Below are positions 8,321 through 36,807 of a stretch of 64,000 bases of DNA, in pieces. Each line of letters opens with the position of its first letter. Position 1 is the first letter of the stretch. Both the position numbers and the translations under genes were made by a program. This DNA comes from Tabrizicola sp. (GTDB lineage Bacteria > Pseudomonadota > Alphaproteobacteria > Rhodobacterales > Rhodobacteraceae): positions 62,001-126,000 of the forward strand of contig JAEULQ010000067.1 in NCBI GenBank assembly GCA_016792685.1, given 5' to 3'. The notes below the pieces were generated by a model. It was given only the letters and a program-made list of their open reading frames with translations. It made no database searches and had not been told where the DNA came from.

Positions 8321-8388
8321 GGCGGTCTCCCGGTTGGGCCCCATCCTGCGCCGGACGCCCGGTCCTGCCAAGCGAAATGCGGCCGGGA

Positions 8389-11738: not shown

Positions 11739-11752
11739 GCCCCGCTCAAGCT

Positions 11753-11780: not shown

Positions 11781-11799
11781 GATCATCACCAAGCCGCCG

Positions 11800-11834
11800 C
11801 CCTCTCCCTTTCGGGGGAGAGGGTAGGGTGAGGG
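11800..11834. repeat. REP-like palindromic repeat (CCCTCTCCC...GGGAGAGGGTAGGGTGAGGG)
   Basis: A 9-bp perfect stem CCCTCTCCC-TTTCGG-GGGAGAGGG followed by TAGGGTGAGGG. This wording closely resembles a palindromic repeat that I recall as dispersed in many proteobacterial genomes. It occurs once here, between the binding-protein and permease genes, 27 bp upstream of the permease start. Confidence 0.5.
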
Positions 11835-11861
11835 GCCCGTTGGCCCCGACGGGATCACGCC

Positions 11862-16037: not shown

Positions 16038-17022
16038 AGTGATCCTCTCTGGCCTTTCCAAGGCCTTCGGTGCGACCCAGGCGCTGCAGGGCGTCGAGAT
16101 GACCATCCCCGATGGAGCCTTTGTCGTCCTTCTGGGGCCGACCGGTGCGGGAAAGACCACCACGCTGCGGTTGATCGCCGGGCTTGACCGTCCCGACAGC
16201 GGTGACATCCGCATTGGCGGCCGGTCCGTCCTGGCCGACACACCCGCGATGCGCGATGTCGCGATGGTGTTCCAGCAGTATTCGCTTTACCCCCATCTCA
16301 CGGTCCGTGAAAATCTGGCCTTTCCCTTGCGCTCGCCGATGATCGCGATGCCCGAGGACCAGATCGCCCGGCGCGTGCAGGAGGTGGCGGAGGTCCTGCG
16401 CATTCCGCACAAGCTGGACAACAAGGCCACGGCCCTATCCGGCGGCGAGATGCAGCGGGTTTCCATCGGCCGGGCCCTGGTGCGCAATCCCCGCATCTAC
16501 CTGATGGATGAGCCCCTGTCCTCGCTGGATGCGAAGTTGCGGGCCGACCTTCGGGTCGAGCTGAAGCGCATTCATCACGAGCTTGGCGCGACCTTTCTTT
16601 ATGTCACCCACGACCAGATCGAGGCGATGACCATGGCCAGCCATGTAGGCGTGCTGGATCGCGGGCGGCTGGTGCAGTTCGGCACCCCGCGCGAGATCTA
16701 TGAAGCCCCGGTCTCGACCTATGTTGCCTCGCGTCTGGGCCAGCCGCACATCAACCTGCTGCCCGCCGGGGTCTTTGGCGGAGGTCCGGAAGGCGCGGCG
16801 ACGATCGGGCTCAGGCCCGAACACATCCGGGTTGGCGAGGGTGCGCCTGCCACGATCACCCGGGTGGAACACCTGGGCGACCAGACGCGGCTGCATCTGG
16901 CGCTTGGGACCCACAGCCTGATCACGCTGACCGAGCCGCATACCCACCAGAAACCGGGTGAGACGCTGATGATCCGCCCGCATGAGCCACTTTGGTTTGA
17001 CGCCAACGGAAACCGCATCTGA
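16030..17022 (+). CDS. ABC transporter ATP-binding protein 2 (UgpC/MalK family)
   Basis: 330-residue second ATPase. Walker A is GPTGAGKTT, the signature is LSGGEMQRVSIGRA, Walker B is YLMDEPLSSLD, and the switch His is in LYVTHDQIEAMTM. A short TOBE region contains GLRPEHIRVGEG. The ATG at 16030 overlaps the upstream ATPase stop; an in-frame codon at 15979 lies well inside that gene. It resembles its neighbour and likely pairs with it to power the permeases. The DHA kinase gene follows after 12 bp. Confidence 0.88.
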   Translation: MAEVILSGLSKAFGATQALQGVEMTIPDGAFVVLLGPTGAGKTTTLRLIAGLDRPDSGDIRIGGRSVLADTPAMRDVAMVFQQYSLYPHLTVRENLAFPLRSPMIAMPEDQIARRVQEVAEVLRIPHKLDNKATALSGGEMQRVSIGRALVRNPRIYLMDEPLSSLDAKLRADLRVELKRIHHELGATFLYVTHDQIEAMTMASHVGVLDRGRLVQFGTPREIYEAPVSTYVASRLGQPHINLLPAGVFGGGPEGAATIGLRPEHIRVGEGAPATITRVEHLGDQTRLHLALGTHSLITLTEPHTHQKPGETLMIRPHEPLWFDANGNRI

Positions 17023-17034
17023 AAGGCCAGTCCC

Positions 17035-18873: not shown

Positions 18874-20382
18874 TCAGTTCGTTGGCGCCCCGCCCTCGGC
18901 CTTGCGGCGGGCGACGAAGGCCTCGAGCGCCTCGCGGATGCCCGGGTCAAGGGGCGGCTCTTCATAGGCGGCCAGCAGGTCTTTCCAGATCCGGTTCGCC
19001 CGGGCCGGGGCCTCTTCGGCGCCCTTGGCAAGCCAGGTCGGGTAATTGTCCCAGTTCGACAGCATCGGCGGGTGGAAGGCGGTCTCGTACTGGGCCATGG
19101 TCTGGGCGGTGCCAAAGAAATGCCCGCCCACCCCGGCCTCGATGATGGCGTCAAGGGACAGGCTTTCCTCGCTCACCCGGATGGGTTCGAAATAGGCCTG
19201 CATCATCCCCAGTAGCTCGGCGTCGAGGATCAGCTTCTCGAAGCTCGCGGTCAGCCCGCCATGCATCCAGCCCGCGCCATGGATCACCAGATGCGCGCCG
19301 CCCATCAGGCAGCCCCACAGGGACATCATGGATTCGTAGGCCGCCTGGGCGTCGATGGCGTTGGCCGCGGTGGTGTTCGAGGAGCGGAAGGGCACCCCGA
19401 TCCGGCGGGCAAGCTGGCCCGAGGCCTGGGCGGCCTTGGCGTATTCGGGCGTCCCGAAAGCGGGCGCCCCGGTCTTCATGTCGACGTTCGAGGTGAAGCC
19501 GCCGTACATCACCGGCACGCCGGGACGCACGATCTGGGTGAGCATGATCCCGAACATAGCCTCGGCATGCTGCAGGACCAGCGCCCCGGCAAGGCTGACC
19601 GGGGCCATGGCGCCGGCCAGCGTGAAGGGCGTGACGATGGCGACCTGACCGTGTTCGGCGAGCGCGATCAGACCCTGGCTCATCGGGTCATCAAGCTGTC
19701 GGGGCGAGTTGGTGTTGATCACCCCCATCATCATCGGCTGGCGGGCCAGATCGTCCAGCGACCAGCCCATGCAGAGCGCCGCCATGTGGATGCCGTCCAT
19801 GGTGCGTTCGGTGCCAAGCGCGTTCAGGTTCCAGCTTTTATCCAGAAGCGTGCATTGCGACAGGTAAAGATCGAGATGCCGCGTGCTTGGGGGCAGGTCC
19901 ATCGGTTCGAGCGGCCCGCCAGATTCCTGCTGGAGTACGTTCAGGCTTTGGCAAAGGCGCAGGAAATCCTGCATGTCCTGCAGAGTCCCGTCACGCCGGC
20001 CCCGGTCGAGGTCCATCACATAGGCCGGACCGCCGACCGTCGAAAAGACCACGTCATTGCCGCCAAAGCGCAGGTCCTTTGCGCGGTTGCGGGCGGCGAT
20101 GGTGAAGGTGCGGGGGACAGTGGCCAATCGTTCTTCGACAAGACCGGCGTCGGGATAGACCATGTTTCCCTCGACCCGTGCCCCGGCACGGCGGAAATGG
20201 TCGATGGCGCGGGCGTTCAGGACGCGCATGCCCTGATGGGCCAATAGCTGCAGGGCCGCCTGATGGATCGCCTCGACATGGTCCTCGGACAAGACGCGGA
20301 TCGGATCATAGGGTCGGGGGCGCTGTCCGAAGGGCGGCTGCGGGATGGCGTTCGGGGCCCGGGTTGGACGGCGTTGGCGCAT
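18874..20382 (-). CDS. MttB-family (pyrrolysine-free) methylamine/betaine:corrinoid methyltransferase, copy 1
   Basis: 502-residue TIM-barrel methyltransferase of the MttB superfamily. It has NAIDAQAAYESMMSLWGCLMGG, VTPFTLAGAMAPVSLAGAL and GGFTSNVDMKTGAPAFGTPEY. The frame is continuous with no in-frame amber codon, so it is the Pyl-less type, like MtgB/MtpB, which demethylate glycine betaine or proline betaine to a corrinoid protein. It overlaps the upstream flavoprotein by one base (TGATG), so the two are co-translated. No MttC-like corrinoid protein is adjacent. The C-terminal RRKAEGGAPTN is shared with copy 2 at 56297. Confidence 0.85.
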   Translation of the reverse strand: MRQRRPTRAPNAIPQPPFGQRPRPYDPIRVLSEDHVEAIHQAALQLLAHQGMRVLNARAIDHFRRAGARVEGNMVYPDAGLVEERLATVPRTFTIAARNRAKDLRFGGNDVVFSTVGGPAYVMDLDRGRRDGTLQDMQDFLRLCQSLNVLQQESGGPLEPMDLPPSTRHLDLYLSQCTLLDKSWNLNALGTERTMDGIHMAALCMGWSLDDLARQPMMMGVINTNSPRQLDDPMSQGLIALAEHGQVAIVTPFTLAGAMAPVSLAGALVLQHAEAMFGIMLTQIVRPGVPVMYGGFTSNVDMKTGAPAFGTPEYAKAAQASGQLARRIGVPFRSSNTTAANAIDAQAAYESMMSLWGCLMGGAHLVIHGAGWMHGGLTASFEKLILDAELLGMMQAYFEPIRVSEESLSLDAIIEAGVGGHFFGTAQTMAQYETAFHPPMLSNWDNYPTWLAKGAEEAPARANRIWKDLLAAYEEPPLDPGIREALEAFVARRKAEGGAPTN

Positions 20383-22406
20383 CAGTATGGCCTTTCGGGC
20401 GCGCGCTCGCGGCGCGGAGGAAGGTCGGGCTCGCCCAGGAGGCGGGCGAAGCGGTGGGCAGAGTGGACCGCATCTGCGATGGAGGAAGGCGCAAGGCAGT
20501 CACCAACCCGTGTGGCCTGAACCCCCGTGGCGGCAAGCGCGGTCCAGAGCCCAAGCTCTGGCAGGCGGCCAGTTGCAAGGACCAGCGTGCCGCAAGGCAG
20601 TGCTTCCTCGCACCCTGTGTAGACGCAAGACAGGGTGATGTGGTCGGACGCTTGCCCCTTCAGCGCCTTAAGGGGATGGATGCTGACCCCGGCTTCGATC
20701 AGCCTTGCCTGCAGGAAATCCTGCTCGTTGGTCAGGGCCGTCCAGGACGAGGCAACGGCGGCGGTGGTGACGTAATGGACCGCATGGCCCTGGCCCGCCA
20801 GACGTTCGGCCAGCGCCCCGGCCATGAAGTAATGCTCGTCGTCGTAGATCACCACGGGGCCCGTCACCTGGGCGCCCGCGAAGATGTCGTCCGGGGTCAG
20901 TGCCTGGGGATAGGCGCCCGGACGGATCGCATAGACCCCGACTGCGTCCCGCCGCCAGCGTGAACCGGTGGCAAGGACGACATGGTCCGCCCCGAATTCG
21001 GCGATGTCGGCAGCCTCCATCCGGCTGCCGGGAAAGATCTGCAAATTTGAAAGCTTGCCGATCATGTGGACCCGCCAGTCGCGGACCCGCATCCAGGTCT
21101 GCAGGCCGGGAAGCGTCGCCTCGTGCAGGAGCCGTCCGCCAAGGGCGGTGCCGGCCTCGGCCAGCGTGACTTCAAGGCCCCGGCGGCCGAGGGTCAGCGC
21201 CGCCTCCAGCCCCGCCGGTCCGCCGCCGATCACCAGCGCCTTTTCGCGCCTGGGGTAGGTCGCGATCCGCTCGGGATGCCAGCCGCGCCGCCATTCCTCG
21301 CCCATCGTGGGGTTCTGGGTGCAGCGCAGGCCCACGCCTTCGTTGTTCGCGGCCCGGCAGATGTTGCAGCCGATGCATTCGCGGATCTCGTCCTCGCGCC
21401 CTTCACGGATCTTCTGCGGCAGGAAAGGGTCGGCGATGGAGGGCCTTGCCGCGCCGATGAAATCCTGGATGCCGCGCTTGATCTGGCTGACCATTCGGTC
21501 GGGCGAGGTGAAGCGGCCGACCGAGACGACGGGCTTGGTCGTGAGGCTTTTCACGAAGGCGACGTTCGCCTCCTGAAAGCCTTCGGGCGAAAACCGGGCC
21601 GAACGGCTGTCATTGCCCAGGGCGCCTGCGACATTGACGTCCCAGAGGTCGGGCAGTTCCGCGAGCATTGCGATGATCTCGCGGCCTTCGCCTTCTGATG
21701 TGATGCCGTCCGGCCCATGAAGCTCATCAACGGCCAGACGGACGGCCACGGCGCAGGTGTCGCCGACGGCGTCGCGCGTGTCTTCGATCATTTCGCGCAG
21801 CAGGCGGACACGGTTTTCCAGCGACCCACCATAGGCATCGCCGCGATGGTTGGTGCGGCGGGAAAGGAACTGGAAGGGCAGGTAGTCGTGGCCGGCATAG
21901 ACATAGACGATGTCGAAGCCTGCCTGTTTCGCCCGGATCGCCGCTGCCCGCTGCCAGCTGCGGAAGTCGCGGATGTCGCTCAGGTCCATGGCCCGCGCGG
22001 TTGCGGGCAGGTGGTAAAGCGCAGGCTGCACGTCCGGCGCGATCCCCGGAACGCGGGTCATCCGGTTCGATGCATGGGCGCCGCCGTGCCAAAGCTCGAT
22101 CCCGGCCAGGGCGCCATGCTTGTGGATCGCCTCGGCTGTCAGGGCCAGGGGGGCGATGTCGCTGTCGTCCCAGAGGGTGAGGAACGCATAGGGGCTGTCG
22201 TCCGAACTGGGATGGATCGAGCAGTATTCGGTGCAGACGACGCCCCAGCCGCCCTCGGCCTTCACCCCCCGCAATGCCGCGCCGGACTGTGGGCGCTGCC
22301 AACCGAAGCCGGTGGCATGCGGGGTCTGGTAAAACCGGTTGGGGGCGGTGACGGGTCCGATCCGCACCGGCTGGAACAGGATATCGTAGCTGGGGTTGCG
22401 GGGCAT
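20382..22406 (-). CDS. Trimethylamine-dehydrogenase-like flavoprotein (N-methyl amine demethylase)
   Basis: 674 residues. An FMN TIM barrel (1-340), [4Fe-4S] Cys ligands C344, C347, C350 and C362, and a C-terminal NAD(P)/FAD-type domain starting with VIGGGPAGLEAA (about 393) match the TMADH/dimethylglycine/N-methylproline demethylase family. The Cys that binds FMN covalently in TMADH is replaced (PHATG, Ala31), and the TMA aromatic bowl is not recognisable, so the substrate is probably a bulkier N-methyl compound. The start at 22406 fits the family N-terminus (PSYDILFQPVRIGPVTAPNRFYQTPH). The frame stays open far upstream, antisense to the next gene, but only this part resembles protein. It is translationally coupled to the MttB gene. 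Confidence 0.87.
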   Translation of the reverse strand: MPRNPSYDILFQPVRIGPVTAPNRFYQTPHATGFGWQRPQSGAALRGVKAEGGWGVVCTEYCSIHPSSDDSPYAFLTLWDDSDIAPLALTAEAIHKHGALAGIELWHGGAHASNRMTRVPGIAPDVQPALYHLPATARAMDLSDIRDFRSWQRAAAIRAKQAGFDIVYVYAGHDYLPFQFLSRRTNHRGDAYGGSLENRVRLLREMIEDTRDAVGDTCAVAVRLAVDELHGPDGITSEGEGREIIAMLAELPDLWDVNVAGALGNDSRSARFSPEGFQEANVAFVKSLTTKPVVSVGRFTSPDRMVSQIKRGIQDFIGAARPSIADPFLPQKIREGREDEIRECIGCNICRAANNEGVGLRCTQNPTMGEEWRRGWHPERIATYPRREKALVIGGGPAGLEAALTLGRRGLEVTLAEAGTALGGRLLHEATLPGLQTWMRVRDWRVHMIGKLSNLQIFPGSRMEAADIAEFGADHVVLATGSRWRRDAVGVYAIRPGAYPQALTPDDIFAGAQVTGPVVIYDDEHYFMAGALAERLAGQGHAVHYVTTAAVASSWTALTNEQDFLQARLIEAGVSIHPLKALKGQASDHITLSCVYTGCEEALPCGTLVLATGRLPELGLWTALAATGVQATRVGDCLAPSSIADAVHSAHRFARLLGEPDLPPRRERAPERPY

Positions 22407-22419
22407 GTGCGGGCCTTGC

Positions 22420-22433
22420 TGAACGGTTGTACA
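22420..22433. promoter_or_regulatory. Candidate TetR-type operator, flavoprotein side
   Basis: TGAACGGTTGTACA, 13 bp upstream of the flavoprotein ATG. It shares TGAACG-N4-T-N-CA with the site at 22490-22503 in opposite orientation. A TetR-family gene lies in the divergent operon. Confidence 0.4.
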
Positions 22434-22489
22434 GTAGGGTCGCGGGACGGCTTCGGTCAAGCGGCGTTTGACAGGTGGCTCGGGCTTGT

Positions 22490-22503
22490 TGCATGGTCGT
22501 TCA
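22490..22503. promoter_or_regulatory. Candidate TetR-type operator, hydrolase side
   Basis: TGCATGGTCGTTCA on the plus strand (TGAACGACCATGCA on the minus strand), 14 bp upstream of the TTG start of the S15/CocE hydrolase. It sits within the wider imperfect palindrome TGTTGCATGGTCGTTCAACA. Confidence 0.4.
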
Positions 22504-22517
22504 ACAGGGAGAGTCGC

Positions 22518-24530
22518 TTGCCAGCCATACGGACCGAATTTCCGCATGAAGTGGAGGTCGTCGAGAACCTCTTCATCCCGCTGCCCGATGGCACGCGGCT
22601 TGCGGCCAAGCTCTGGCGGCCAAAGGGGCAGGGGCGGTATCCGGCGATCCTGGAATACCTGCCCTATCGCAAGCATGACGGAACGCGGGGCCGCGATCAG
22701 GGCCTGCACATGTATCTCGCCGGGCATGGCTATGCCTGCCTGCGCGTCGACATCCGTGGTTGCGGTGAAAGCGAAGGGGTGATCGACGACGAATACTCCG
22801 AAGTCGAGCTTGCCGATGGCTGCGACGTGATCGGCTGGATCGCGGGGCAGGGCTGGTGCGACGGGCAGGTCGCGATGATCGGGATCAGCTGGGGCGGATT
22901 CAACGGCCTGCAGATTGCGGCGCGCCAGCCTCCGGCGCTGAAGACCGTGATCGCCGTGGGGTTCACCGACGACCGCTATGCCACGGATGTCCATTACGTT
23001 GGCGGCTGTCTGTCGAAGGACAATCTGGACTGGTCCGGGACCATGGTGGCGGGCATGGACCTGCCGCCGGACCCGGCGATCCACGGCGAGGGTTGGCGGG
23101 AGATCTGGCTTCAGCGGATCGCGGCGAACCGGCCCTGGGGGTTGACCTGGATGAGGCACCAGCGCCGGGACGACTACTGGCGGCACGGCTCGGTCTGCGA
23201 GGACTTTGCCGCGATCAGGGTGCCGGTCTATGCAGTCTCGGGCTGGGCGGACAATTATTCGGAAGCGGTGCCAAGGCTTCTGGCCGGAATGACCGCGCCT
23301 TGCCGGGGGCTGATCGGGCCCTGGGCGCACAGTTTCCCGCAGGATGTGACGGTCGAGCCCGCCATCGGCTGGCTGCAAGAGGTGGTGCGCTGGTGTGACC
23401 ACTGGATGAAGGGCCGCGAGACCGGGATCATGGCGGAACCGGCGCTGCGGGTCTGGATGCAGGAAAGCCTGCCCCCCCGGACCTGCTACCACGAGAGACC
23501 GGGGCGCTGGGTGGGTGAAGAGCACTGGCCCTCGCCCCGCATCCTCGATTTGCCGCTTTGCCCGGTGGGCGGGGCCTTGCGCGAAGGGCCCGAGCCGGGC
23601 CAGGCGCGGATCGCCTCGCCGCTTTGGGTCGGCATGGCCGCGGGCGAGGTCGGTCGCTATGGCGACGATGCCGACTGGCCGACCGACCAGCGCGAGGATG
23701 ACGCGGGCTCGCTGGTCTGGGTGGGCGAACCCCTGGCCGAGCGGGTGGAGATCCTTGGCGCGCCAAGGCTGCGGCTGCGCGTTGCATCGGACAAGCCGCT
23801 GGCGCTGGTCGCAGTGCGGCTGAACGATGTGGCGCCGGACGGGGCCTCGACCCGGGTGACGGTCGGGCTGATGAATCTTACGCATCATCTGGGCCATGAC
23901 CGCCCGCAGCCACTGGTGCCGGGGCAGCCGGTGGAGGTGGAGGTCGAGCTTGACGACATCGCCCATGCCTTTCCACCGGGCCACCGGATTGCCTTGTCGC
24001 TGTCCTCGACCTACTGGCCGATTGCCTGGCCCTCGCCCGAGGCCGCGACGCTGACGCTGGACCTTGGGGCGACGGTCCTGACCTTGCCGGTCCGTCCGCC
24101 CCGGGCCGAGGACGCGCGCCTTCGGGCCTTTGAACCGCCCGAAGCTGCGCCCGATACGCCGGTCCTGCATCACTCCGCCCCGCAGGCCCACCCGCGCCGG
24201 GTGACGCGCGATCTGCTGTCCGGGCGGATCACGGTGGATTTCCCGCGCTGGACCTATGATCACGAGATGACCGATATCGGCATCCGCCAGCGCTCGACCG
24301 GACATGCGCGATACGAGATCACCGAGGGTGACCCGCTGAGTGCGGCGATGGAGACGGCCTACAGGGTCGAGCAGATCAGGGCGGATGGTGTCTTCGTGCA
24401 TGAAAGCACAGGGCGCATGACCTGCGACCTGACCCATTTCCATGTCGGGGCCGAGGTGGTGATCCTGGAAAACGGTCAGGAAATTCACCGCCGGAGTTGG
24501 CAGGAGGCGATCCCCCGTGACCATATCTGA
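22518..24530 (+). CDS. CocE/NonD-type (X-Pro dipeptidyl-peptidase S15 family) hydrolase
   Basis: 670-residue alpha/beta hydrolase. The nucleophile motif GISWGGF gives Ser124. Catalytic Asp245 is in VSGWADNYSE and catalytic His271 in GPWAHSF. A C-terminal jelly-roll domain (about 380-560) ends with extra beta-rich sequence. Family members cleave X-Pro dipeptides, cocaine-like esters or acyl-amino-acid esters; there is no signal peptide, so it is intracellular. The start is TTG at 22518 behind AGGGAGAG. It is the first gene of a nine-gene operon with a Dpp-type importer, and its stop overlaps the TetR gene start. Confidence 0.85.
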   Translation: MPAIRTEFPHEVEVVENLFIPLPDGTRLAAKLWRPKGQGRYPAILEYLPYRKHDGTRGRDQGLHMYLAGHGYACLRVDIRGCGESEGVIDDEYSEVELADGCDVIGWIAGQGWCDGQVAMIGISWGGFNGLQIAARQPPALKTVIAVGFTDDRYATDVHYVGGCLSKDNLDWSGTMVAGMDLPPDPAIHGEGWREIWLQRIAANRPWGLTWMRHQRRDDYWRHGSVCEDFAAIRVPVYAVSGWADNYSEAVPRLLAGMTAPCRGLIGPWAHSFPQDVTVEPAIGWLQEVVRWCDHWMKGRETGIMAEPALRVWMQESLPPRTCYHERPGRWVGEEHWPSPRILDLPLCPVGGALREGPEPGQARIASPLWVGMAAGEVGRYGDDADWPTDQREDDAGSLVWVGEPLAERVEILGAPRLRLRVASDKPLALVAVRLNDVAPDGASTRVTVGLMNLTHHLGHDRPQPLVPGQPVEVEVELDDIAHAFPPGHRIALSLSSTYWPIAWPSPEAATLTLDLGATVLTLPVRPPRAEDARLRAFEPPEAAPDTPVLHHSAPQAHPRRVTRDLLSGRITVDFPRWTYDHEMTDIGIRQRSTGHARYEITEGDPLSAAMETAYRVEQIRADGVFVHESTGRMTCDLTHFHVGAEVVILENGQEIHRRSWQEAIPRDHI

Positions 24531-25122
24531 CGCTCCGAAATTCCGCCGCTATGCCGCCGAGGAGCGGGCCGCAATGCTGGTACAGGCGGGGTTGGACTGC
24601 CTGGCCGAAGGTGGGATCACGGCCTTCACGGTCGACAACGTCTGCAAACGCGCCGGGGCCTCGCGCGGGCTGATCGCCCATCACTTCGGCTCGAAGGACG
24701 GGCTTCTGGCGGCGGTCTATGAGGCGGCCTATGCGCCCATGCTGGCCAAGATCGCACCCGAGACTGGGGCGCTGGCGCTGGGGCAACTGATCGACACGAT
24801 GTTCGACGCCGAGGCGCATGATCTGCCGACCCTGCGGACCTGGCTTGCGCTTTGGGGCGAGATTGCCGTGAACCCGGCGCTGAAGGCGGCGCATCGGCGG
24901 AACTACGGACAGTACCGCGCCATCGTCGAGGGCGCCATTGCCGCGCATGGCCGGAGCCGGGGCCTGAAGCTTGATGCAGGACCGCTGGCGGCCAGCGTCA
25001 TCGCGCTGGTCGACGGGCTGTGGCTTGAGCAATGCATCGACCCGGAAGGCTTTGACAGCCAGCGGGCGCGGACTGCCTGCCTTGGAATGCTGGAACCGGT
25101 ACTTGGTCCATTGGACCCGTGA
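24517..25122 (+). CDS. TetR/AcrR-family regulator (BetI-like)
   Basis: 201-residue regulator. The N-terminal HTH (about 15-60) reads MLVQAGLDCLAEGGITAFTVDNVCKRAGASRGLIAHHFGSKDGLL. The ligand domain resembles the BetI-type C-terminus (RTWLALWGEIAVNPALKAAHRRNYGQYR), which in BetI responds to choline. It starts with GTG at 24517, overlapping the hydrolase gene by 14 bp. The two divergent sites at 22420 and 22490 are the likely operators. This supports an amine- or betaine-related inducer, by inference. Confidence 0.87.
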   Translation: MTISDAPKFRRYAAEERAAMLVQAGLDCLAEGGITAFTVDNVCKRAGASRGLIAHHFGSKDGLLAAVYEAAYAPMLAKIAPETGALALGQLIDTMFDAEAHDLPTLRTWLALWGEIAVNPALKAAHRRNYGQYRAIVEGAIAAHGRSRGLKLDAGPLAASVIALVDGLWLEQCIDPEGFDSQRARTACLGMLEPVLGPLDP

Positions 25123-25189
25123 GACTTGACAGGCCCGAAAGCGCGGGCGCAGAGTTTTGATCATATGGCCGACAGGGCCAGAGGTGCGG

Positions 25190-26302
25190 ATGAAGACCGA
25201 GACAGTGCCCCTTGCGGGGCCAAGTCCAGGGACGACGCGAAGCCTGACCCGGCACCACTGGGGCCATGGGGATGCAAGGCCGAAGGTCTATCTGCAAGGC
25301 GGTCTTCATGCCGACGAGATGCCGGGCCCGCTTGCGCTATATCACCTGATGGCGCTGCTGGATGAGGCCGAGGCCGAAGGGCGGATCACCGGGCATATAG
25401 TGGTCGTTCCGCTGGCCAATCCGATCGGGCTTTCGGAATGGCTTTTGCACAAGCCGGTCGGGCGGCGCGACCTGGAAGGGGCGCAGAACTTCAACCGAGG
25501 CTATCCGGATCTGGCTGCCCTGGCGGGCGGGGCTCTGGCGGGCAAGCTTGGCGCGGATGCGGCGGCAAATGTCCGGGCGATCCGAAAGGCCTTTGCGGAA
25601 AGCCTTTCTGACCTGCGTCCCGAGACCGAAGTCGATGAGCTGCGCCTGCGCCTGATCGAGGGCTCGTTCGACGCTGACCATGTACTTGATCTGCATTGCG
25701 ACCACCATGCGGTGATGCACCACTACACCTCATCCGCCCAGGCCGGGATCGGCGAGCTTCTGGGCCGCGCGGTCGGCTCGAAACTGGCGCTGATCGCGGA
25801 CCTTTCGGGTGGCAACGCTTTTGACGAGGCGCATACCGCCCCGTGGCGGGACCTGCGCGCGCGGTTTCCGGATCATCCGATCCCCGATCCCTGCTTTGCC
25901 ACGACGCTGGAATATCGCGGCCAGCAAGATGTATCGGACCCGCTGGCCCTGGCCGATGCCGAGGGGCTGATGGCGTTCATTTCTGCCGTAGGTGCCATCA
26001 TCGACGGCCCGCAACTGCTGCATCCGCCTGCCGAGACGGCACCTCTGGCCGGAGCGGTGGAGTTCTTTGCGCCCATTGGCGGGATCGTCAGCTGGATCAC
26101 GGTTCCGGGCGACCGGGTCGAGGAGGGGCAGGTTCTGGGCCATATCACCGATGCAGCCTTGCGCCGTCGCCTGCCGATCACGGCGCCCACCACCGGACTT
26201 CTGTTCCGGCAAGAGCTTTGGACTTCCTGCCTGAAAGGGCAGGGGTTGTGCCATGTGGCCGGGACCGAGATCCGACGACAGGGCGACCTTCTGTCGAACT
26301 GA
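25190..26302 (+). CDS. Succinylglutamate desuccinylase/aspartoacylase-like zinc deacylase
   Basis: 370-residue M14-related amidohydrolase (AstE/AspA/DoeB family). Zinc ligands are recognisable in QGGLHADEMPG (His and Glu) and VLDLHCDHH. A family-typical C-terminal barrel-sandwich part reads VEFFAPIGGIVSWITVPGDRVEEGQVLGHI. Such enzymes remove an acyl group from an N-acyl amino acid. The ATG at 25190 has GAGG 5 nt upstream; an earlier in-frame codon exists at 25157. Between the TetR gene and the Dpp transporter genes, it probably deacylates an imported N-acyl compound. Confidence 0.82.
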   Translation: MKTETVPLAGPSPGTTRSLTRHHWGHGDARPKVYLQGGLHADEMPGPLALYHLMALLDEAEAEGRITGHIVVVPLANPIGLSEWLLHKPVGRRDLEGAQNFNRGYPDLAALAGGALAGKLGADAAANVRAIRKAFAESLSDLRPETEVDELRLRLIEGSFDADHVLDLHCDHHAVMHHYTSSAQAGIGELLGRAVGSKLALIADLSGGNAFDEAHTAPWRDLRARFPDHPIPDPCFATTLEYRGQQDVSDPLALADAEGLMAFISAVGAIIDGPQLLHPPAETAPLAGAVEFFAPIGGIVSWITVPGDRVEEGQVLGHITDAALRRRLPITAPTTGLLFRQELWTSCLKGQGLCHVAGTEIRRQGDLLSN

Positions 26303-26330
26303 ACCAATAAGACCAACGGGGAGAGACAAG

Positions 26331-27932
26331 ATGATGAGACAAGGAAAGGGATGGGCGCGCTGGCTCGCCGGGGCCGCCATGACTCTGGCGCTGGCGACGG
26401 GCCCCGCGCTGGCCGATGACACGCTGGATCGGGGCGTGGGATCGGAATGGTCCTCGCTTGACCCGCAGGTGAACTTCGACGCGGCGGCGGGCTGGATCCT
26501 GGCGGATGCCTATGAGGGGCTGGTGAACTTCGATCCCTCAGGCAAGATCATCCCGGGCGCCGCCGAGAGCTGGGAGGCGAGCGCGGACGGCAAGACCTAT
26601 ACTTTCCGCCTGCGTGAGGGGCTGAAATGGTCGAACGGGGACCCGCTGGTGGCGCAGGACTTTGTCAACGGCGTGCTGCGGACGCTGAACCCCGACACGA
26701 TTTCCGAGAAGGGCTATTATTTCTATTCGACCATCAAGGTGAAGGGCGCCGAGGCGCTGGCGAATGGCGAGACCAAGGATCCTGCTGTCCTGGGGATGAC
26801 CGCGCCGGATGACCGGACCGTGGTCGTCGAGATGGAGACCCCTGCGCCACATATCCTTGACCTCATGGGGTCGTTCCAGTTGGCGCCGCTGCATTCGCCC
26901 AGCTTTCAGGCCGACGGGGCCGGCGTCTTCATCGATCCCGGCAAGGTCGTGTCGAACGGGGCCTATGTCATCAAGGAGGTCGTGCCACAAAGCCATGTGC
27001 TGCTTGAGCGGAACCCGAACTACTGGGATGCAGCGAATGTTAAGATCCCCTTCGTCAAATATCATGTGACCGAGGACGTGGGCACCGAACTCAAGCGCTA
27101 TCAGGCCGGCGAGATCGACATCACTTATGACATTCCCCTGGCCGATCTGGAGCGGCTCTCGGCGGAAACGCCGGACGAGGTCTTCATCTTCCCCTCGACC
27201 TATCTGATCTACTACAGCTTCAACCTGTCACATCCCGACCTGTCGAACCTGGACCTGCGGCGGGCCCTGTCGCTGGCCATCGACCGCGAGGTCCTGGAAG
27301 GCAAGATCGTCAAGGGCGGCGGGGTACCGACGCTGTCCTATGGCGGCGGCTTTGACGCGGACTATCCCGCGCCGCAGATCGCCGAGGCCAGCATGAGCCA
27401 GGCCGAGCGCGAAGCCTTGGCGCAAGAGCTTTATGCCAAGGCAGGATATGGGCCGGACAATCCGCTGAAACTGTCGATTGCCACGACGGTGGCCGAGATC
27501 AACATCCGCCGGGCCCAGGGTGCGGCGCTGATGTGGAAGAAGGTGCTGGGCGCCGAGGTCGAGATCAACTCGATGGAACGCAAGGCCTGGCTGGATCTCT
27601 TCTACACCGATGACTGGTCGATCTTTGCCGACAACCTGGTCGGCGATTTTGCGGGGCCAGAGACCTTCCTGTCCTACATGCGTCCCTCGGCGGAACCCGG
27701 TTATGGGTGGGAAAAGCCGGAATACGATGCGGCAATGGACGAGGCGGCGCAGGTCCCGGACAAGGCCGGCCGCTACGTCGGGCTGGCCAAGGCCGAACGG
27801 ATCCTGCTGGACGACTATATCTTCGCGCCCATGGCGATCGAGCCCTACCGCCATCTTGTCAAAGCCAACGTCAAGGGCTTCGCGCCATCGGTCGCGGGCT
27901 ATCACAACAGCCAGTTCATGACGCTGGAATGA
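26331..27932 (+). CDS. Dpp/Opp-type ABC binding protein (SBP family 5)
   Basis: 533-residue periplasmic receptor with a signal peptide (RWLAGAAMTLALATGPALA, cleavage near residue 28). The mature protein starts DDTLDRGVGSEWSSLDPQVNFDAAAGWILADAYEGL. Family 5 motifs are SWEASADGKTYTFRLREGLKWSNGDPLVAQDFV and LDLRRALSLAIDREVLEGKIV. It binds oligopeptides or similarly sized solutes. GGGGAGAGA precedes the ATG at 26331. It feeds the four transporter genes that follow. Confidence 0.9.
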   Translation: MMRQGKGWARWLAGAAMTLALATGPALADDTLDRGVGSEWSSLDPQVNFDAAAGWILADAYEGLVNFDPSGKIIPGAAESWEASADGKTYTFRLREGLKWSNGDPLVAQDFVNGVLRTLNPDTISEKGYYFYSTIKVKGAEALANGETKDPAVLGMTAPDDRTVVVEMETPAPHILDLMGSFQLAPLHSPSFQADGAGVFIDPGKVVSNGAYVIKEVVPQSHVLLERNPNYWDAANVKIPFVKYHVTEDVGTELKRYQAGEIDITYDIPLADLERLSAETPDEVFIFPSTYLIYYSFNLSHPDLSNLDLRRALSLAIDREVLEGKIVKGGGVPTLSYGGGFDADYPAPQIAEASMSQAEREALAQELYAKAGYGPDNPLKLSIATTVAEINIRRAQGAALMWKKVLGAEVEINSMERKAWLDLFYTDDWSIFADNLVGDFAGPETFLSYMRPSAEPGYGWEKPEYDAAMDEAAQVPDKAGRYVGLAKAERILLDDYIFAPMAIEPYRHLVKANVKGFAPSVAGYHNSQFMTLE

Positions 27933-27976
27933 GGAGCAGGGCCCGGGCGCGACGGTCCGCCCGGGCCTGACACATC

Positions 27977-28900
27977 ATGTTGCGGTTCATCGGCAAAAGA
28001 TTGTGGCACGGAGGGCTGACGCTGGCGGCGCTGGTCACGCTGACCTTCTTCGTCATGCGTCTGGCCCCGGGCGGACCCTTTTCGCGCAATCGCAAGATCA
28101 GCCCGGAGGTTCAGGCCAATATCGAGGCCGCCTTCCACCTGGATGAGCCGCTCTGGCAGCAGTTCGGCCGCTTTGTCTGGGGGGTCTTGCGGCTGGACCT
28201 TGGCCCCTCGACCCGGCATCGGGATTATTCGGTCAATGACCTGATCGCTTCGGGGCTGCCCTATTCACTGACAATCGGCTTCTGGGCCATCGTCATCGCC
28301 GCACTGGTCGGGGTCGCCTTTGGCCTTGCCGGCGCGCTTCGCCGCAATTCGGCGACCGATTACCTGGCCGGAACCATCGGCGTCGTCGGGATCGCCGTTC
28401 CGATCTTCGTCATTGGCCCGCTCGCCCAGGCCTTCTTTTCGCTGCGCCTCGAATGGCTGCCCGTGGGGGGGATCACCGAGGGTTGGCGGTCCTTGGTCCT
28501 GCCGATCCTCGTGCTGGCCCTGCCCAACATCGCCTATATCAGCCGCATCACCCGCACTTCGATGATCGAGACCCTGCGGGAAAATCATGTCCGCACCGCT
28601 CGGGCCAAGGGGGTGGGCTGGCGTCGGGTGCTGACCTCGCATGTCCTGACCGGCGCGCTGCTGCCGGTCATCGCCTATCTTGGCCCGGCGACAGCCGCGG
28701 TCATCACCGGTTCCATCCTGATCGAGACCGTCTTTGCCGTTCCCGGCATCGGGCGGCATTTCGTAGATGCGGCGCTGAACCGGGACTACCCGTTGGTCAT
28801 GGGGATCACCTTGCTTTACGGAAGCCTCCTGATCCTGTTCAACATCGCGACCGATGTCGTTCGCGCGATCCTTGACCCGAGGATCCGGCATGAGCGTTGA
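27977..28900 (+). CDS. dppB: Dpp/Opp-type permease B
   Basis: 307-residue inner-membrane permease. The N-terminal LRFIGKRLWHGGLTLAALVTLTFFVMRLAPGGPF is diagnostic of DppB/OppB. The conserved loop reads RITRTSMIETLRENHVRTARAKGVGWRRVL, followed by GSILIETVFAVPGIGRHFVDAAL. Its stop overlaps the permease C start by 11 bp. It is one of five transporter genes in the operon. Confidence 0.9.
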   Translation: MLRFIGKRLWHGGLTLAALVTLTFFVMRLAPGGPFSRNRKISPEVQANIEAAFHLDEPLWQQFGRFVWGVLRLDLGPSTRHRDYSVNDLIASGLPYSLTIGFWAIVIAALVGVAFGLAGALRRNSATDYLAGTIGVVGIAVPIFVIGPLAQAFFSLRLEWLPVGGITEGWRSLVLPILVLALPNIAYISRITRTSMIETLRENHVRTARAKGVGWRRVLTSHVLTGALLPVIAYLGPATAAVITGSILIETVFAVPGIGRHFVDAALNRDYPLVMGITLLYGSLLILFNIATDVVRAILDPRIRHER

Positions 28901-29777
28901 CCTCTCCACGCCCGAGGCCGCCCCGCCGCGCGGTGTTTCGACCCTGCGACTGCAGGTCCGCCGCTTTGCCGCGAACCGCCTGGCCATGGCTTCGGTCGTC
29001 GTCCTGACGCTGATCGTCCTGGCCTGCTTCTTCGGGCCCTATGCCTTCCCCTTCACTGGCGAGGATGCAGATTTCGACTTCATCTCGGCCCCGGCCGAGC
29101 TGTCCTGGCCGCATCTCTTCGGCACGGACGAATACGGCCGCGACCTCCTGGTCCGGGTGCTGGAGGGCGGGCAGGTGTCGCTGACCATCGGCTTTCTGGG
29201 CGCGCTGGCGGCCGGGGGGATCGGCGTGATCTATGGGGCGGTCGCGGGATATGCGGGGGGACGGGTCGACGGGTTGATGATGCGTCTCGTCGAGATCCTT
29301 TACGGCTTTCCCTATGTGATCCTGGTGATTTTGCTCAGCCTTCTGCTTGGCGGTGGCAACATGGCGCTTTTCGCCGCCATCGTCTTCACGCTCTGGCTGA
29401 CCCCGGCCGTCATCGTCAGGGCGCAGGCGCAGAGCCTTGCGCGGAAGGAGTTCGTCGAGGCGGCCCGCGCGGGCGGCATGACCGGCAGCCGGATCGTGCT
29501 GCAGCATATCGTGCCGAACTGCATCTCGGTGGTGATCGTCTATGGCAGCCTGCTGGTGCCCGAGGTGATCCTGTCGGAAAGCTTTCTCTCCTTCCTTGGC
29601 ATCGGCATCAAGGAGCCGCAGGCCAGCTGGGGCAACCTGATTTCCTCTGGCACGTCGGCCATGGACAGCGACCTCAGGCTTCTGCTTCTGCCCGGCACGA
29701 TGCTGGCCATTGTGCTGCTCTGCCTCAACTTCATCGCCGATGGCTTGAGGGATGCCTTTGACCCCAATGACCGCTGA
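28890..29777 (+). CDS. dppC: Dpp/Opp-type permease C
   Basis: 295-residue permease. The DppC/OppC signature LFGTDEYGRDLLVRVLEGGQVSLTIGFLGALAAG and the EAA-like loop RKEFVEAARAGGMTGSRIVLQHIVPNC are visible, with C-terminal LCLNFIADGLRDAFDPNDR. The start at 28890 overlaps the dppB stop, and the gene end overlaps the next ATPase gene. Confidence 0.9.
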   Translation: MSVDLSTPEAAPPRGVSTLRLQVRRFAANRLAMASVVVLTLIVLACFFGPYAFPFTGEDADFDFISAPAELSWPHLFGTDEYGRDLLVRVLEGGQVSLTIGFLGALAAGGIGVIYGAVAGYAGGRVDGLMMRLVEILYGFPYVILVILLSLLLGGGNMALFAAIVFTLWLTPAVIVRAQAQSLARKEFVEAARAGGMTGSRIVLQHIVPNCISVVIVYGSLLVPEVILSESFLSFLGIGIKEPQASWGNLISSGTSAMDSDLRLLLLPGTMLAIVLLCLNFIADGLRDAFDPNDR

Positions 29778-30753
29778 ACCGCTGCTTTCGCTGCAGGACC
29801 TGACCGTCCGCTTCCGCCTGCCCGCCGGCGAAACGGTGGCCGTGGATGGGGTGTCGCTGGACCTGGCGCCGGGCGAGGTTCTGGGCATCGTCGGTGAAAG
29901 CGGGTCGGGGAAAAGCCAGATCCTTTATGCGCTGATGGGGCTTCTAGCCTCGAACGGTCGGGCGGGTGGTCGCGCGCTCTTCCAGGGGCAGGACCTTCTT
30001 TCGCTGACCGAAGCGCAGCTTGACCGGGTACGGGGGCAGGCGGTCTCGATGATCTTCCAGGACCCGATGACCTCGCTCAATCCCTACATGCGGGTCGTGG
30101 ACCAGCTGGCCGAGGGGCTGGTGGTCCACAAGGGAATGTCCTGGGCTTCCGCGCGGGCCGAAGGGGTGCGCATGCTTGACCGGGTGCGCATTCCCGATGC
30201 AGCCCGCCGCGCCAGGCTTTACCCGCATGAGTTTTCCGGCGGCATGCGGCAGCGGGTGATGATCGCTATGGCGCTTCTGGCCCGGCCACGCCTTCTTTTG
30301 GCAGACGAGCCCACGACGGCGCTGGATGTGACGATCCAGGCCCAGGTGCTTGACCTGATGGCCGAACTGGGGCGCGAGACGGGGGCGGCGATCGTGCTTG
30401 TCACCCACGACCTGGGCGTCGTCGCCCGGCTTTGCGACCGGGTGGCGGTTCTTTACGGCGGGCGGGTGATGGAGGAAGGCGCGGCCGAGGCGCTGTTCGA
30501 TGCCCCCGCACATCCCTATACCCGCGGGCTTCTCGCCGCCATGCCGCGGCTTGAGACCACGCTGACCCCGCGGCTTGGCACCATTCCCGGCACGCCGAGA
30601 TCCGGAGGCGCGATGCTTGCCGGCTGCCCTTTCGCGCCCCGGTGCGAGGCCCGGTTCGACCGCTGCACGCACGAACGTCCGGCGCTGCACCCCTTGCGCA
30701 GTCAGGGCCCGGGTCGCCGCGCTGCCTGCCACCTGTCGGAGCCCGCGACATGA
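29767..30753 (+). CDS. dppD: Dpp/Opp-type ATP-binding protein D
   Basis: 328-residue ATPase. Walker A is GESGSGKSQ, where the usual Thr is replaced by Gln after the Ser. The signature FSGGMRQRVMIAMAL and Walker [13 protein letters not shown] are present, with LVTHDLGVVARL. The C-terminal peptide-transporter Cys region GCPFAPRCEARFDRCTHERP (Fe-S-like) is intact. The start is taken as 29767, overlapping dppC; an in-frame ATG lies at 29752. Its end overlaps dppF as ATGA. Confidence 0.88.
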   Translation: MTAEPLLSLQDLTVRFRLPAGETVAVDGVSLDLAPGEVLGIVGESGSGKSQILYALMGLLASNGRAGGRALFQGQDLLSLTEAQLDRVRGQAVSMIFQDPMTSLNPYMRVVDQLAEGLVVHKGMSWASARAEGVRMLDRVRIPDAARRARLYPHEFSGGMRQRVMIAMALLARPRLLLADEPTTALDVTIQAQVLDLMAELGRETGAAIVLVTHDLGVVARLCDRVAVLYGGRVMEEGAAEALFDAPAHPYTRGLLAAMPRLETTLTPRLGTIPGTPRSGGAMLAGCPFAPRCEARFDRCTHERPALHPLRSQGPGRRAACHLSEPAT

Positions 30754-31718
30754 GCCTGCTGGAAGCCCGTCATCTTGCAGTCGGCTACAAGGTGCCTGGC
30801 CCGGGCCTCTTCTCGGCCCCGCGTCTTCTGCCCATTGTCCATGACGTCTCGCTGTCGCTCGAGGCCGGACGGACACTGGGCGTCGTGGGCGAAAGCGGTT
30901 GCGGCAAGTCGACGCTTGGCCGTGCGCTTCTGCGGCTGATCCGGCCATCGGGTGGCACGGTCCTCTGGCAGGGCGAGGATATGGCTGGGATCCCCGATCT
31001 GCGCCGCCGCCGGGCCGAGATGCAGATCATCTTCCAGGATCCCATTGCGGCACTTGATCCCCGGATGACCCTGGCCCGCATCGTCAGCCGCCCGCTGGCC
31101 ACTTTCGAGCCCGGGCTGTCACGCAAGGACGCCCGTGCCCGCGCGGTCGAGGCCTTGCAACAGGTCGGCCTGTCGGCCGATTTCGCCGACCGCTACCCGC
31201 ATGAGCTGTCGGGCGGGCAGGCGCAGAGGGTGGGCATCGCCCGGGCCATTGTCGGGCGCCCCAAACTGATCATCTGCGACGAACCTGTCTCGGCTCTCGA
31301 TGTCTCGATCCAGGCGCAGGTGATCAACCTCTTGATGGAATTGCAGGAACGGATGGGACTGGCCTTGGTCTTCATCTCGCACAACCTGGCCGTGGTCCGG
31401 CACATCAGCCATGATGTGATGGTGATGTGCCTTGGCCGCGTGGTCGAGCAGGCGCCGCGCAGTTCCTTTTATGCAAGGCCCCTTCATCCCTATTCGCAGG
31501 CGTTGATGGCGGCCGTCCCCGAACCCGACCCGCGCCGTGAAAAGGGCCGGGTCGGCACCGCGCTGCAGGGAGAGCTTCCCTCGGTCCTGAAACCGCCCCC
31601 GGGTTGCGTCTTTGCCAGCCGCTGCCCAAAGGCTGCGGACCTTTGCCGCCAGACCCGCCCTGAGCTGCGCGAGGTCGCGCCAGGCCGCCTTGCCGCCTGC
31701 CATTTCGTCGAGGTGTAG
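30750..31718 (+). CDS. dppF: Dpp/Opp-type ATP-binding protein F
   Basis: 322-residue ATPase. Walker A is GESGCGKST, the signature LSGGQAQRVGIARA, Walker B LIICDEPVSALD, and the switch FISHNLAVVRH. The C-terminal motif PPGCVFASRCPKAADLCRQTRPEL with conserved cysteines is present. The start at 30750 overlaps the dppD stop. It is followed after one base by the S9 peptidase gene, so all nine genes read as one operon. Confidence 0.9.
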   Translation: MSLLEARHLAVGYKVPGPGLFSAPRLLPIVHDVSLSLEAGRTLGVVGESGCGKSTLGRALLRLIRPSGGTVLWQGEDMAGIPDLRRRRAEMQIIFQDPIAALDPRMTLARIVSRPLATFEPGLSRKDARARAVEALQQVGLSADFADRYPHELSGGQAQRVGIARAIVGRPKLIICDEPVSALDVSIQAQVINLLMELQERMGLALVFISHNLAVVRHISHDVMVMCLGRVVEQAPRSSFYARPLHPYSQALMAAVPEPDPRREKGRVGTALQGELPSVLKPPPGCVFASRCPKAADLCRQTRPELREVAPGRLAACHFVEV

Positions 31719-31719
31719 G

Positions 31720-33531
31720 ATGACCGACCTTGCCGCACTCTGGGCCGCCTGCCCGCAACTGTCCTGCGTCCACGCCAGTGCGGATGGCAGATGGGCCTTC
31801 TGGTGCTGGCAGGGCGTGACCGAGACGGATGAAGTCTGGTGCGCGCCCCTCGACGGCTCCGAACCGCCCCGGCGGCTGACCCATGGCTCTGACCACTTCC
31901 TGATCCGCGATGTCACGCCCGATGGTGCGCGCCTTTTGCTTGCCCAGTCAGTGAATGCCAACGAACACGACCATCTGTTGCTGCTCGACCGTGTCAGTGG
32001 CGAGCTGACCCAACTGACGCCGACGCAATCCACCCATTACGTCTATGGTGGCTGCTTTTCGGCGGATGGCGGGCGCATCTTCTTCCAGGCCGATTACGAC
32101 TATGACCGGGACGAGGTCACCCTGGGTTCCTGGCTCTGGGCGCAGGACCTGGCAACTGGAGCCCGCACTTGCCTTGCGCGCGCAGACACCCCGCCGCACT
32201 ACTATGTCGGCCCCCGCCTGTCCCCCGATGGCACAAGGCTTCTGTGGCACCGCAGCGAAGGCGCGCCGGGGCTTTACCAGCTTTGGGTCGTATGGGTCGA
32301 CGGCCAGACCCCGCAGGAGGTGCTGAACCTCGGACCCGAAAACAGCGCGACCGGCACATGGGTCAGCGATGACCGCATCGCCTTTGTCGGTGATCGGGAC
32401 GGGGCCGACCGGCTGGGTGTCCTGACCCTTTCCACCGGGCAGATCGACTGGATCGCGGGAGAACCGGCGCTTTGCCCGCATGATGTGCTGGCCGGGACCG
32501 GGCCGACCTTTGCCTGCATTCATCACGACCAGTCGAACACGCGCGCCGCACTGGTAGAAGGCGGCGTGATCCGTCCCTTGCCGAACGCTTCGGGTCGCCG
32601 CAGCCTGCTGCCCCACGCCGCTTTGCCTGAAGGCGGCTGGCTGGCCGAAGCCTATGACGCCGATGCCCCGCATGATCTGGTTGCCGTCGCCGCCGATGGC
32701 ACCTGCCGCACAATTGCCCGTGCCGCGGCGAACCCCGGCCGCCAGTTCATTGCGCCCAGGGATTTTCGCTGGAATGCCCCGGACGGGATGGCGATGCAGG
32801 GCTGGCTTTACCGTCCGGAAGGTCGCTGCAAAGGCCTGATCGGATACATCCATGGCGGGCCGACCTGGCATTCGGAGGATTGGGTCAATCCGCGCATCCA
32901 GTATCTGCTGGCGCTGGGCTATGCCGTCCTGGACCCCAACTATCGCGGCTCCACCGGTTTTGGCCGCGCTCACCGCGAGGCGGTGAAGGATGATGGCTGG
33001 GGCGGGCGGGAGCAGTCCGACATTCGCAGCGGTCTGGAGGCGGCGCTGGCTGCAGGCGTGCCCGGCCCGGTGGCGGTGATGGGCAACAGTTATGGCGGGT
33101 TCTCCAGCTGGTTTGCGATCACCCGCCACGCTGATCTGGTCACGGCAGCCATTCCGATGTGCGGGATGTACCGGCTGGACATCGACTATCATGCGACCGA
33201 GATGCCGCATGGCCGCGCCTATAGCGAAGAGATGATGGGCGGCACGCCCGAGGAATTCCCCGAGAAATACGCCAATGCCTCGCCCGGTCGCTTCATCGAC
33301 CGGATCCGTGGCCATGTGATGATCGTCCACGGGCTCGCCGACAGCAATGTGGGCCCCGAGAACACCCATGTCGCCATCCGCGAACTGACGGTGGCGGGTA
33401 TCCCGCATGAGGCGATGCTTTTCGACAATGAAGGCCACGGCATCTTCCGGCGCGGGAATGTCGAAGCCTATCTCGACCGCGTAGCTGGCTTTCTTGACCG
33501 GGCGTTCCGCGCCGGGATGCGGAGTGGGTGA
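31720..33531 (+). CDS. S9 prolyl-oligopeptidase-like hydrolase
   Basis: 603 residues: an N-terminal beta-propeller (about 10-340, repeated LSPDGTRLL-type blades) and a C-terminal alpha/beta hydrolase domain. The triad is Ser457 in GNSYGGF, Asp541 in HGLADSN and His573 in NEGHGIF. The propeller limits access to small peptides or amino-acid esters. There is no signal peptide. It is the last gene of the Dpp operon; a second Pro-directed hydrolase fold (S15) opens the same operon, which hints at Pro-containing or N-acylated imported substrates. Confidence 0.87.
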   Translation: MTDLAALWAACPQLSCVHASADGRWAFWCWQGVTETDEVWCAPLDGSEPPRRLTHGSDHFLIRDVTPDGARLLLAQSVNANEHDHLLLLDRVSGELTQLTPTQSTHYVYGGCFSADGGRIFFQADYDYDRDEVTLGSWLWAQDLATGARTCLARADTPPHYYVGPRLSPDGTRLLWHRSEGAPGLYQLWVVWVDGQTPQEVLNLGPENSATGTWVSDDRIAFVGDRDGADRLGVLTLSTGQIDWIAGEPALCPHDVLAGTGPTFACIHHDQSNTRAALVEGGVIRPLPNASGRRSLLPHAALPEGGWLAEAYDADAPHDLVAVAADGTCRTIARAAANPGRQFIAPRDFRWNAPDGMAMQGWLYRPEGRCKGLIGYIHGGPTWHSEDWVNPRIQYLLALGYAVLDPNYRGSTGFGRAHREAVKDDGWGGREQSDIRSGLEAALAAGVPGPVAVMGNSYGGFSSWFAITRHADLVTAAIPMCGMYRLDIDYHATEMPHGRAYSEEMMGGTPEEFPEKYANASPGRFIDRIRGHVMIVHGLADSNVGPENTHVAIRELTVAGIPHEAMLFDNEGHGIFRRGNVEAYLDRVAGFLDRAFRAGMRSG

Positions 33532-33582: not shown

Positions 33583-36807
<3,225 letters not shown>

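Follow-up and report, generated by a model that had tools for sequence, protein, structure and literature searches.

A divergent MttB-flavoprotein and Opp-importer locus in Tabrizicola: a candidate TetR-controlled regulon for a masked quaternary-ammonium compound

Two divergently oriented gene arms lie in a stretch of 64,000 nucleotides (the window) of contig JAEULQ010000067.1 from Tabrizicola sp., whose assembly (GCA_016792685.1; genome G000) comprises 3.58 Mb in 136 contigs and is 88.9% complete. The minus-strand arm consists of an MttB-superfamily methyltransferase without pyrrolysine and a flavoprotein related to trimethylamine dehydrogenase (TMADH) and histamine dehydrogenase; the two genes share one base, 20382. 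Across an interval of 111 bases, nine collinear plus-strand genes run from an S15 hydrolase through a TetR regulator, an AstE-like hydrolase and a full Opp-type importer to an S9-type hydrolase, with gaps of -14, 67, 28, 44, -11, -26, -4 and 1 bases between them (table 1). Open frames and family models agree with the gene content and order given in an earlier note on this DNA. That note did not contain the paired 24-bp imperfect palindromes of the interval, one before each arm. A search of 22250-22700 revealed neither a sigma-70 consensus promoter nor a terminator, and the intergenic strand between the arms showed no unusual folding.

Table 1. Genes and putative operators of the two arms, in window positions.
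Feature	Position	Strand	Support
MttB-superfamily methyltransferase without pyrrolysine	18874-20382	-	PF06253
TMADH/histamine-dehydrogenase-like FMN/4Fe-4S flavoprotein, Ala for the FMN-linking Cys	20382-22406	-	PF00724 + PF07992
Operator 1 (putative), 24-bp imperfect palindrome, 5' of the flavoprotein-MttB arm	22415-22438	+	
Operator 2 (putative), 24-bp imperfect palindrome, 5' of the S15-to-S9 arm	22485-22508	+	
S15/CocE-NonD alpha/beta hydrolase, TTG start, Ser nucleophile motif GISWG	22518-24530	+	PF02129, PF08530, TIGR00976
BetI-like TetR, likely repressor of both arms (predicted)	24517-25122	+	PF13977, 69.9 bits
AstE/AspA-type zinc hydrolase (deacylase or carboxypeptidase-like)	25190-26302	+	PF24827; 8ein 223.3, 8eip 220.6 bits
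SBP5 binding protein, OppA/MppA-like	26331-27932	+	PF00496
OppB-type permease	27977-28900	+	family models
OppC-type permease	28890-29777	+	family models
OppD-type ATPase	29752-30753	+	family models
OppF-type ATPase	30750-31718	+	family model
S9-type (prolyl-oligopeptidase clan) hydrolase, motif GNSYG	31720-33531	+	weak Dpp5 match under cut-off

Co-conservation of the two arms had been set beforehand as the test of their association, and was found in Rhodobacteraceae and Mesorhizobium. Two surveys were made, in which G labels denote genomes and L labels loci. (i) The order was covered by 244 genomes, the window's own included. (ii) Contigs of named genomes were searched with five aligned MttB proteins; the best 80 of at least 593 relatives, ranked by similarity, were expanded into loci. 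Eighteen of these 80 (L051-L068; MttB identity of at least 59%) are the module loci, several of those from Mesorhizobium being close relatives. Many neighbouring genes were named by eye. The flavoprotein occurs in 17 of the 18 (absent from L051; broken by masked bases in L058 and cut by the contig end in L068), the module TetR in 16 (absent from L051 and L052; cut at the edge in L055), the S15 hydrolase in 15 (not found in L052, L061 or the 8.5-kb L068; for L066 it lies in L158) and the SBP5/Opp importer in 14 (not found near L052, L059, L061 or L068; for L060 it lies on contig L157). MttB, flavoprotein, S15 and TetR form the most constant part, and the eleven-gene set of the window is, as judged from these loci, one of several forms.

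Within the order, MttB-family proteins at E<=1e-120 occur in 182 of the 244 genomes, and relatives of at least 55% identity in five, the window genome among them. Two of the other four have the flavoprotein next to MttB: G211 in a single run, flavoprotein-MttB-S15-OppBCDF-SBP-TetR, and G042 with HalD-like, Rieske, SBP5 and Opp genes and a module-type TetR, S15 not being found in the stretches examined. The S15 hydrolase at 60% identity or above is confined to three genomes (the window genome, G211 and G062; next best 50%) and adjoins the MttB-flavoprotein pair in two of them. AstE-like proteins (E<=1e-30) were found in six genomes and the S9 protein (E<=1e-60) in two. Chance neighbourhood is rejected on the strength of this conservation and the shared palindromes. 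No description of the gene set was found in open-licence PubMed Central papers.

A palindrome close to CTTGTTGAACGATCGTTCAACAAG is repeated in the upstream regions when these are read side by side. A degenerate pattern has two zero-mismatch sites in the whole assembly, both of them the window sites, and its reversed control has none; the window sites helped to write the pattern, so that their own match is no test. The test came from a leave-one-locus-out scan: the matrix was built from the other loci, near relatives included, and each locus was compared with 20 shuffles. The top match lay at a module promoter and above all 20 shuffles in 15 of the 18 loci, and L068 gave no match. Loci outside every matrix (L062, L064-L067, L069, L039) also carry the site. 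In Mesorhizobium (L062-L065, L067) two sites stand about 12 kb apart, one before the flavoprotein and one before the S15-importer operon. G250 (Xinfangfangia) has the pair and S15-TetR without an importer; there the pattern located an AstE-SBP-OppBCDF-S9 run on a second contig, 65-83% identical to the window arm (AstE 53%), with the site about 30 bases before the likely AstE start, which was set by length, the open frame running on.

With up to three mismatches, the 16 module genomes hold 22 distinct sites (13 of the 16 matched; one reversed-control match), 17 of them at module promoters, including the separate importer arm of G250, and five elsewhere; several of the 17 helped to write the pattern. 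With up to two mismatches, nine of the 244 genomes have a site, three of them at the module, and the reversed control gives six matches; the six non-module genomes are at background level. Four of these six were examined, and in G225 the site precedes a BetI-like TetR near a Rieske gene. A strict pattern, written too strictly, had zero matches in 132 loci. The import arm of G062, which is without TetR, has no site above shuffles, and L070 and L073 have no match in the matrix scan. A third site in the window genome (three mismatches, C67) was considered as a regulon member and set aside as chance, since it falls within a gene identified by eye as folK. The best matrix match in L082 (21.5, largest shuffle 9.2) lies before a Rieske gene at 16627-17697, not at the MttB pair. 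One of the five sites elsewhere, in G253, is operator-like with three mismatches and lies about 110 bases upstream of a gene that looks porin-like by eye (L158:15346-16563) and has no NCBIfam match; in this single Rhizobiales genome the gene may encode an outer-membrane component of the regulon.

The candidate regulator resembles that of the BetI-controlled choline genes in its BetI-type C-terminal domain, and the half-sites TTGAAC/GTTCAA presumably resemble BetI sites. It differs in standing with other genes and in falling below both BetI models (77.4 bits for a cut-off of 201.3, and 73.4 for 118). The helix SRGLI(T/A/N/G)HHF is common to 12 aligned module TetRs and missing from a more distant BetI-like protein. 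The common control of both arms claimed in the earlier note is borne out to the extent that a palindromic operator precedes each arm even where the arms are 12 kb apart or on separate contigs. Because the arms are co-conserved and share the operator across such distances, they appear to belong together. That they form one regulon under this TetR, which we infer to bind the palindromes, is well supported by comparative sequence evidence.

The methyltransferase matches PF06253 with 625.9 bits over residues 7-500 of 500. At the position of pyrrolysine in the MttB 7xcl it has Thr in an open frame without in-frame stop, in keeping with its earlier description as pyrrolysine-free. Its score against the trimethylamine methyltransferase model proper (TIGR02369) is 287.5 bits, under the cut-off of 525, and its nearest solved relatives are 4yyc, 9yce (an entry named glycine betaine methyltransferase) and 2qne. 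The assembly contains six MttB-family genes, one B12-binding_2 (PF02607) protein, near which genes were read by eye as DUF1638 and MtgE-like, and one RACo-like activator. A second MttB gene of the window, at 56252-57853 (+), is 44% identical to the first. The idea of a corrinoid partner dedicated to MttB and encoded next to it was set aside, none being seen in the window and a single PF02607 protein in the assembly. The window MttB presumably uses this MtgC-like protein as a shared partner, unless another is encoded in the missing 11% of the assembly.

Such sharing has a precedent in the aerobic MtgBCDE system of Ruegeria pomeroyi, in which an MttB-superfamily enzyme passes methyl groups to an MtgC-type corrinoid protein that also serves methionine synthesis (PMC12478193, in part); the corrinoid protein, activator, DUF1638 and MtgE-like genes of the window genome resemble it. 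The window MttB differs in its dedicated flavoprotein, hydrolases, Opp importer and TetR, a set absent from the portion of that account used here. In Eubacterium limosum, MttB-superfamily enzymes act on proline betaine (MtpB), carnitine (MtcB), gamma-butyrobetaine (MtyB) and phosphocholine (MthBCAK); the quaternary amines known as substrates of the non-pyrrolysine enzymes carry an acid group, which in the choline system is first added by the kinase MthK (PMC12155760, as far as excerpted). The window enzyme shares with these the predicted demethylation of a quaternary amine without pyrrolysine. Unlike theirs, its operon, in an aerobic-type host, carries neither a kinase nor a corrinoid or folate methyltransferase gene, and has a hydrolase and an Opp importer instead.

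The flavoprotein has the OYE-like FMN domain, the FAD/NAD-type domain and the 4Fe-4S cysteines of the TMADH/histamine dehydrogenase family. The earlier label 'TMADH-like' holds for the family; the protein itself is closer to histamine dehydrogenase (649.7 bits) than to TMADH (526.6 bits). It was compared with the solved structures 3k30, 6de6, 6l6j and 1djn and placed in an alignment of 55 rows. The FMN-linking Cys is replaced by Ala in all 19 rows of types A and B, the window protein included, and kept in the three rows whose MttB partner is more distant, as well as in 33 of 33 other rows; 6l6j also has Ala there. All four cysteines of the Cys-x2-Cys-x2-Cys...Cys stretch are kept. In the YxYxxHxYLP stretch type A keeps Tyr and His, and type B has Met in place of His; the roles of these active-site residues are taken to be those of the family. 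Of the aromatic bowl that we assume binds the cation in TMADH (Tyr60, Trp264, Trp355), the window protein keeps the Tyr, and the two Trp align with Leu and Asn. As the linking Cys and the bowl Trp are missing, the alignment predicts that FMN is held non-covalently and that the pocket is not shaped for trimethylamine. A branch with support 100/97 separates the 22 MttB-paired rows from the 33 others, most of which were judged within 1.5 kb only, L020 and L022 having a distant MttB relative (24%) nearby. TMADH, histamine dehydrogenase and 6-hydroxypseudooxynicotine oxidase (Pno; PMC5500553, in part) have the same domain order, the four cysteines and the Tyr and His of type A; the replaced Cys and, in the window protein, the lost Trp pair set the module enzymes apart from TMADH and histamine dehydrogenase. 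Elsewhere, two or three TMADH/histamine-dehydrogenase-like genes stand in tandem (L008-L018, L036, L047), and the tandem of L047 adjoins a TetR and a transporter that looks polyamine-type by eye.

The S15 hydrolase exceeds the cut-off of the CocE/NonD model TIGR00976 (246.5 against 66.3 bits) and falls far below those of three Xaa-Pro dipeptidyl-peptidase models (95.2/642, 48.7/711 and 30.1/881 bits); the S9 protein passes no curated model. The earlier statement that two of the hydrolases are proline-linked had rested on clan names and is not upheld. The importer, described before as Dpp/Opp, is indeed complete, with an SBP5 protein, two permeases and two ATPases with oligo_HPY domains. It is of the Opp rather than the Dpp type: the best solved relatives of the binding protein are MppA and OppA, and the permeases and first ATPase best match the OppB, OppC and OppD models, although none of the three reaches the curated cut-off. 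The OppA equivalog model is missed (274.9 bits for 947). The binding protein keeps the Asp of the (V/C)(G/A)DxxxPxxFL stretch, which we take to hold the peptide N-terminus. Two importer types alternate among module loci. The window type is accompanied by AstE and S9 in the window, L051, L157 and G062, and by AstE in L058, where the contig ends before S9; S15 stands beside it in all but L157, for which it is on the other contig, L060. The second type, in L053-L057 and L062-L067, is found without AstE and S9, and its binding protein is nearest 6tfq, presumably an opine binder. All four combinations of flavoprotein types A and B with the two importer types were seen.

The two arms very likely form one pathway for a quaternary-amine compound, as far as gene content and conservation can tell. 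The reading of a single regulon, controlled by the TetR and serving a quaternary-ammonium compound that arrives in masked form (ester, amide or peptide), is judged somewhat more probable than all other readings together. The following steps are proposed. (i) The Opp-type importer would bring the conjugate into the cytoplasm. (ii) The S15/CocE-like hydrolase, helped here by the AstE-like and S9-like enzymes, would free the quaternary amine. (iii) Hydrolysis would probably expose the acid group that non-pyrrolysine MttB enzymes need. (iv) MttB would pass one N-methyl group to the MtgC-like corrinoid protein that is shared in the cell, from which it would reach folate. (v) The flavoprotein would oxidatively remove a methyl from the resulting tertiary amine. 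(vi) General enzymes would complete the remaining steps. (vii) The BetI-like TetR would sit on the 24-bp palindromes before both arms and be released when substrate or product is present. A hydrolase beside MttB fits such unmasking because the known non-pyrrolysine substrates are acidic and a kinase supplies the acid group in the choline system (PMC12155760, in part); S15 may supply it as MthK does, here by hydrolysis that would release a carboxylate from an ester or amide. The general idea of the earlier note, import of a conjugate followed by hydrolysis and N-demethylation, is still the best reading of the gene set. A bolder form of it is put forward tentatively, and we think it rather less probable than not: the CocE-like hydrolase would be the gate that unmasks esterified or amidated (peptidyl) betaines imported by Opp for MttB, with a clade of non-covalent-FMN dehydrogenases, one BetI-like repressor and its own 24-bp operator, making a new kind of corrinoid-dependent pathway in aerobes.

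Several observations weigh against a masked substrate handled by one regulon. No match identifies the substrate. Two only distantly related binding proteins go with the same core, and for that reason their ligands may differ. G062 keeps S15-AstE-SBP-Opp-S9 with no MttB, flavoprotein, TetR or operator beside it, so an import arm may be useful without the demethylase pair. G110 and G227 (MttB 56-57%) have Rieske and SBP5 genes beside MttB in place of flavoprotein and S15, the G227 contig being 9.6 kb long. Parts are missing from L051 (no flavoprotein or TetR, both operators remaining), L052 (no S15 or module TetR) and L061 (no S15 or Opp). The S15 proteins of Mesorhizobium reach only 43-44% identity, a level that many unlinked S15 proteins reach as well, and the palindrome matches of L052, L056 and L037 (G211) are weak, not exceeding the largest shuffle.

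In the strongest rival reading the regulon serves a betaine in free form or a simple quaternary osmolyte, such as glycine or proline betaine, with an MtgB- or MtpB-like MttB, a flavoprotein demethylating dimethylglycine or N-methylproline, and hydrolases for co-imported peptides. The presence of 9yce among the three best solved relatives of MttB favours it, and the two N-methyls of proline betaine would match the two enzymes. Single-locus neighbours hint, by their models, at trimethylammonium or glycine-betaine chemistry. TmpA and TmpB break down 2-trimethylaminoethylphosphonate, yielding glycine betaine; in L055 both exceed their curated cut-offs and lie directly beside the module MttB (11671-13415), but this is the only such locus of those examined. 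In L063 a sarcosine oxidase alpha subunit that exceeds its cut-off and a gamma-like protein that does not stand upstream of the pair, and L061 has most of this block. A further glycine betaine enzyme would, however, be redundant where MttB matches are so widespread in the order and this genome alone has six, and neither the Opp importers nor an S15 kept at 15 of 18 loci would be needed; we regard a free betaine as possible and rather unlikely. The more specific suggestion of the earlier note, proline betaine or N-methylproline, is possible but was set aside as unsupported: S15 is CocE-like and fails the Xaa-Pro models, and among the recurring neighbour groups of 29 loci none was recognised as proline-specific, an M24 protein common to L053 and L072 being DddP-like under its cut-off.

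Salvage of methylated peptides (with, for example, trimethyl-lysine, or trimethylalanine or dimethylproline at the N-terminus) would have Opp, S9, the AstE-like enzyme and S15 import and trim the peptide, and MttB and the flavoprotein demethylate the freed residue. The OppA/MppA-like binding protein with its conserved Asp suits such a role, as does the company that AstE, S9 and, except in L157, S15 keep with the window-type importer; the second importer type does without AstE and S9, and S15 is by its model no Xaa-Pro peptidase, which makes this account improbable. Two unrelated functions merely sharing a promoter region would explain why G062 has the import arm alone and why L052, L069, L070, L073 and L082 have the pair with no import arm in the stretch examined, but the idea is very hard to reconcile with an operator before both arms when these lie far apart (Mesorhizobium) or on different contigs (G250), and with the recurrence of S15 at 15 of 18 loci, among which the gene order takes several forms.

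Such a regulon is compact and has a regulator, an operator, an importer and a hydrolase to itself, which offers a direct way in: the TetR inducer and the ligand of the binding protein should give the substrate. If the masked-betaine reading is true, Rhodobacteraceae and rhizobia would have a way to draw on conjugated quaternary amines as a pool, and a group of flavoproteins without the FMN-linking Cys would gain a context.

Some further neighbours were recorded. Another association of a hydrolase with MttB involves an M24 hydrolase, DddP-like under the cut-off (374.7/600), near MttB in 18 loci (among them L053:19714-20838, L072, L079, L081 and L085), 14 of which also have a dimethylglycine-dehydrogenase-like protein. 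A pair of acetyltransferase-like and histone-deacetylase-like genes lies near the flavoprotein and MttB in L052 (5531-6984) and by the importer arm in L157 (162-1648), the latter gene, so named by eye, being 73% identical between the two. In the window, a Rieske oxygenase alpha subunit (7187-8344, minus strand), GbcA-like under the cut-off (135.9/670), is 32-34% identical to Rieske proteins beside MttB in L038/L039. The S9 gene is immediately followed by the catalase-peroxidase gene katG (33583-35853, minus strand), and a KatG of 63% identity also adjoins the module in L059; a tie to hydrogen peroxide made by the flavoprotein is possible, as is an inherited ancestral gene order.

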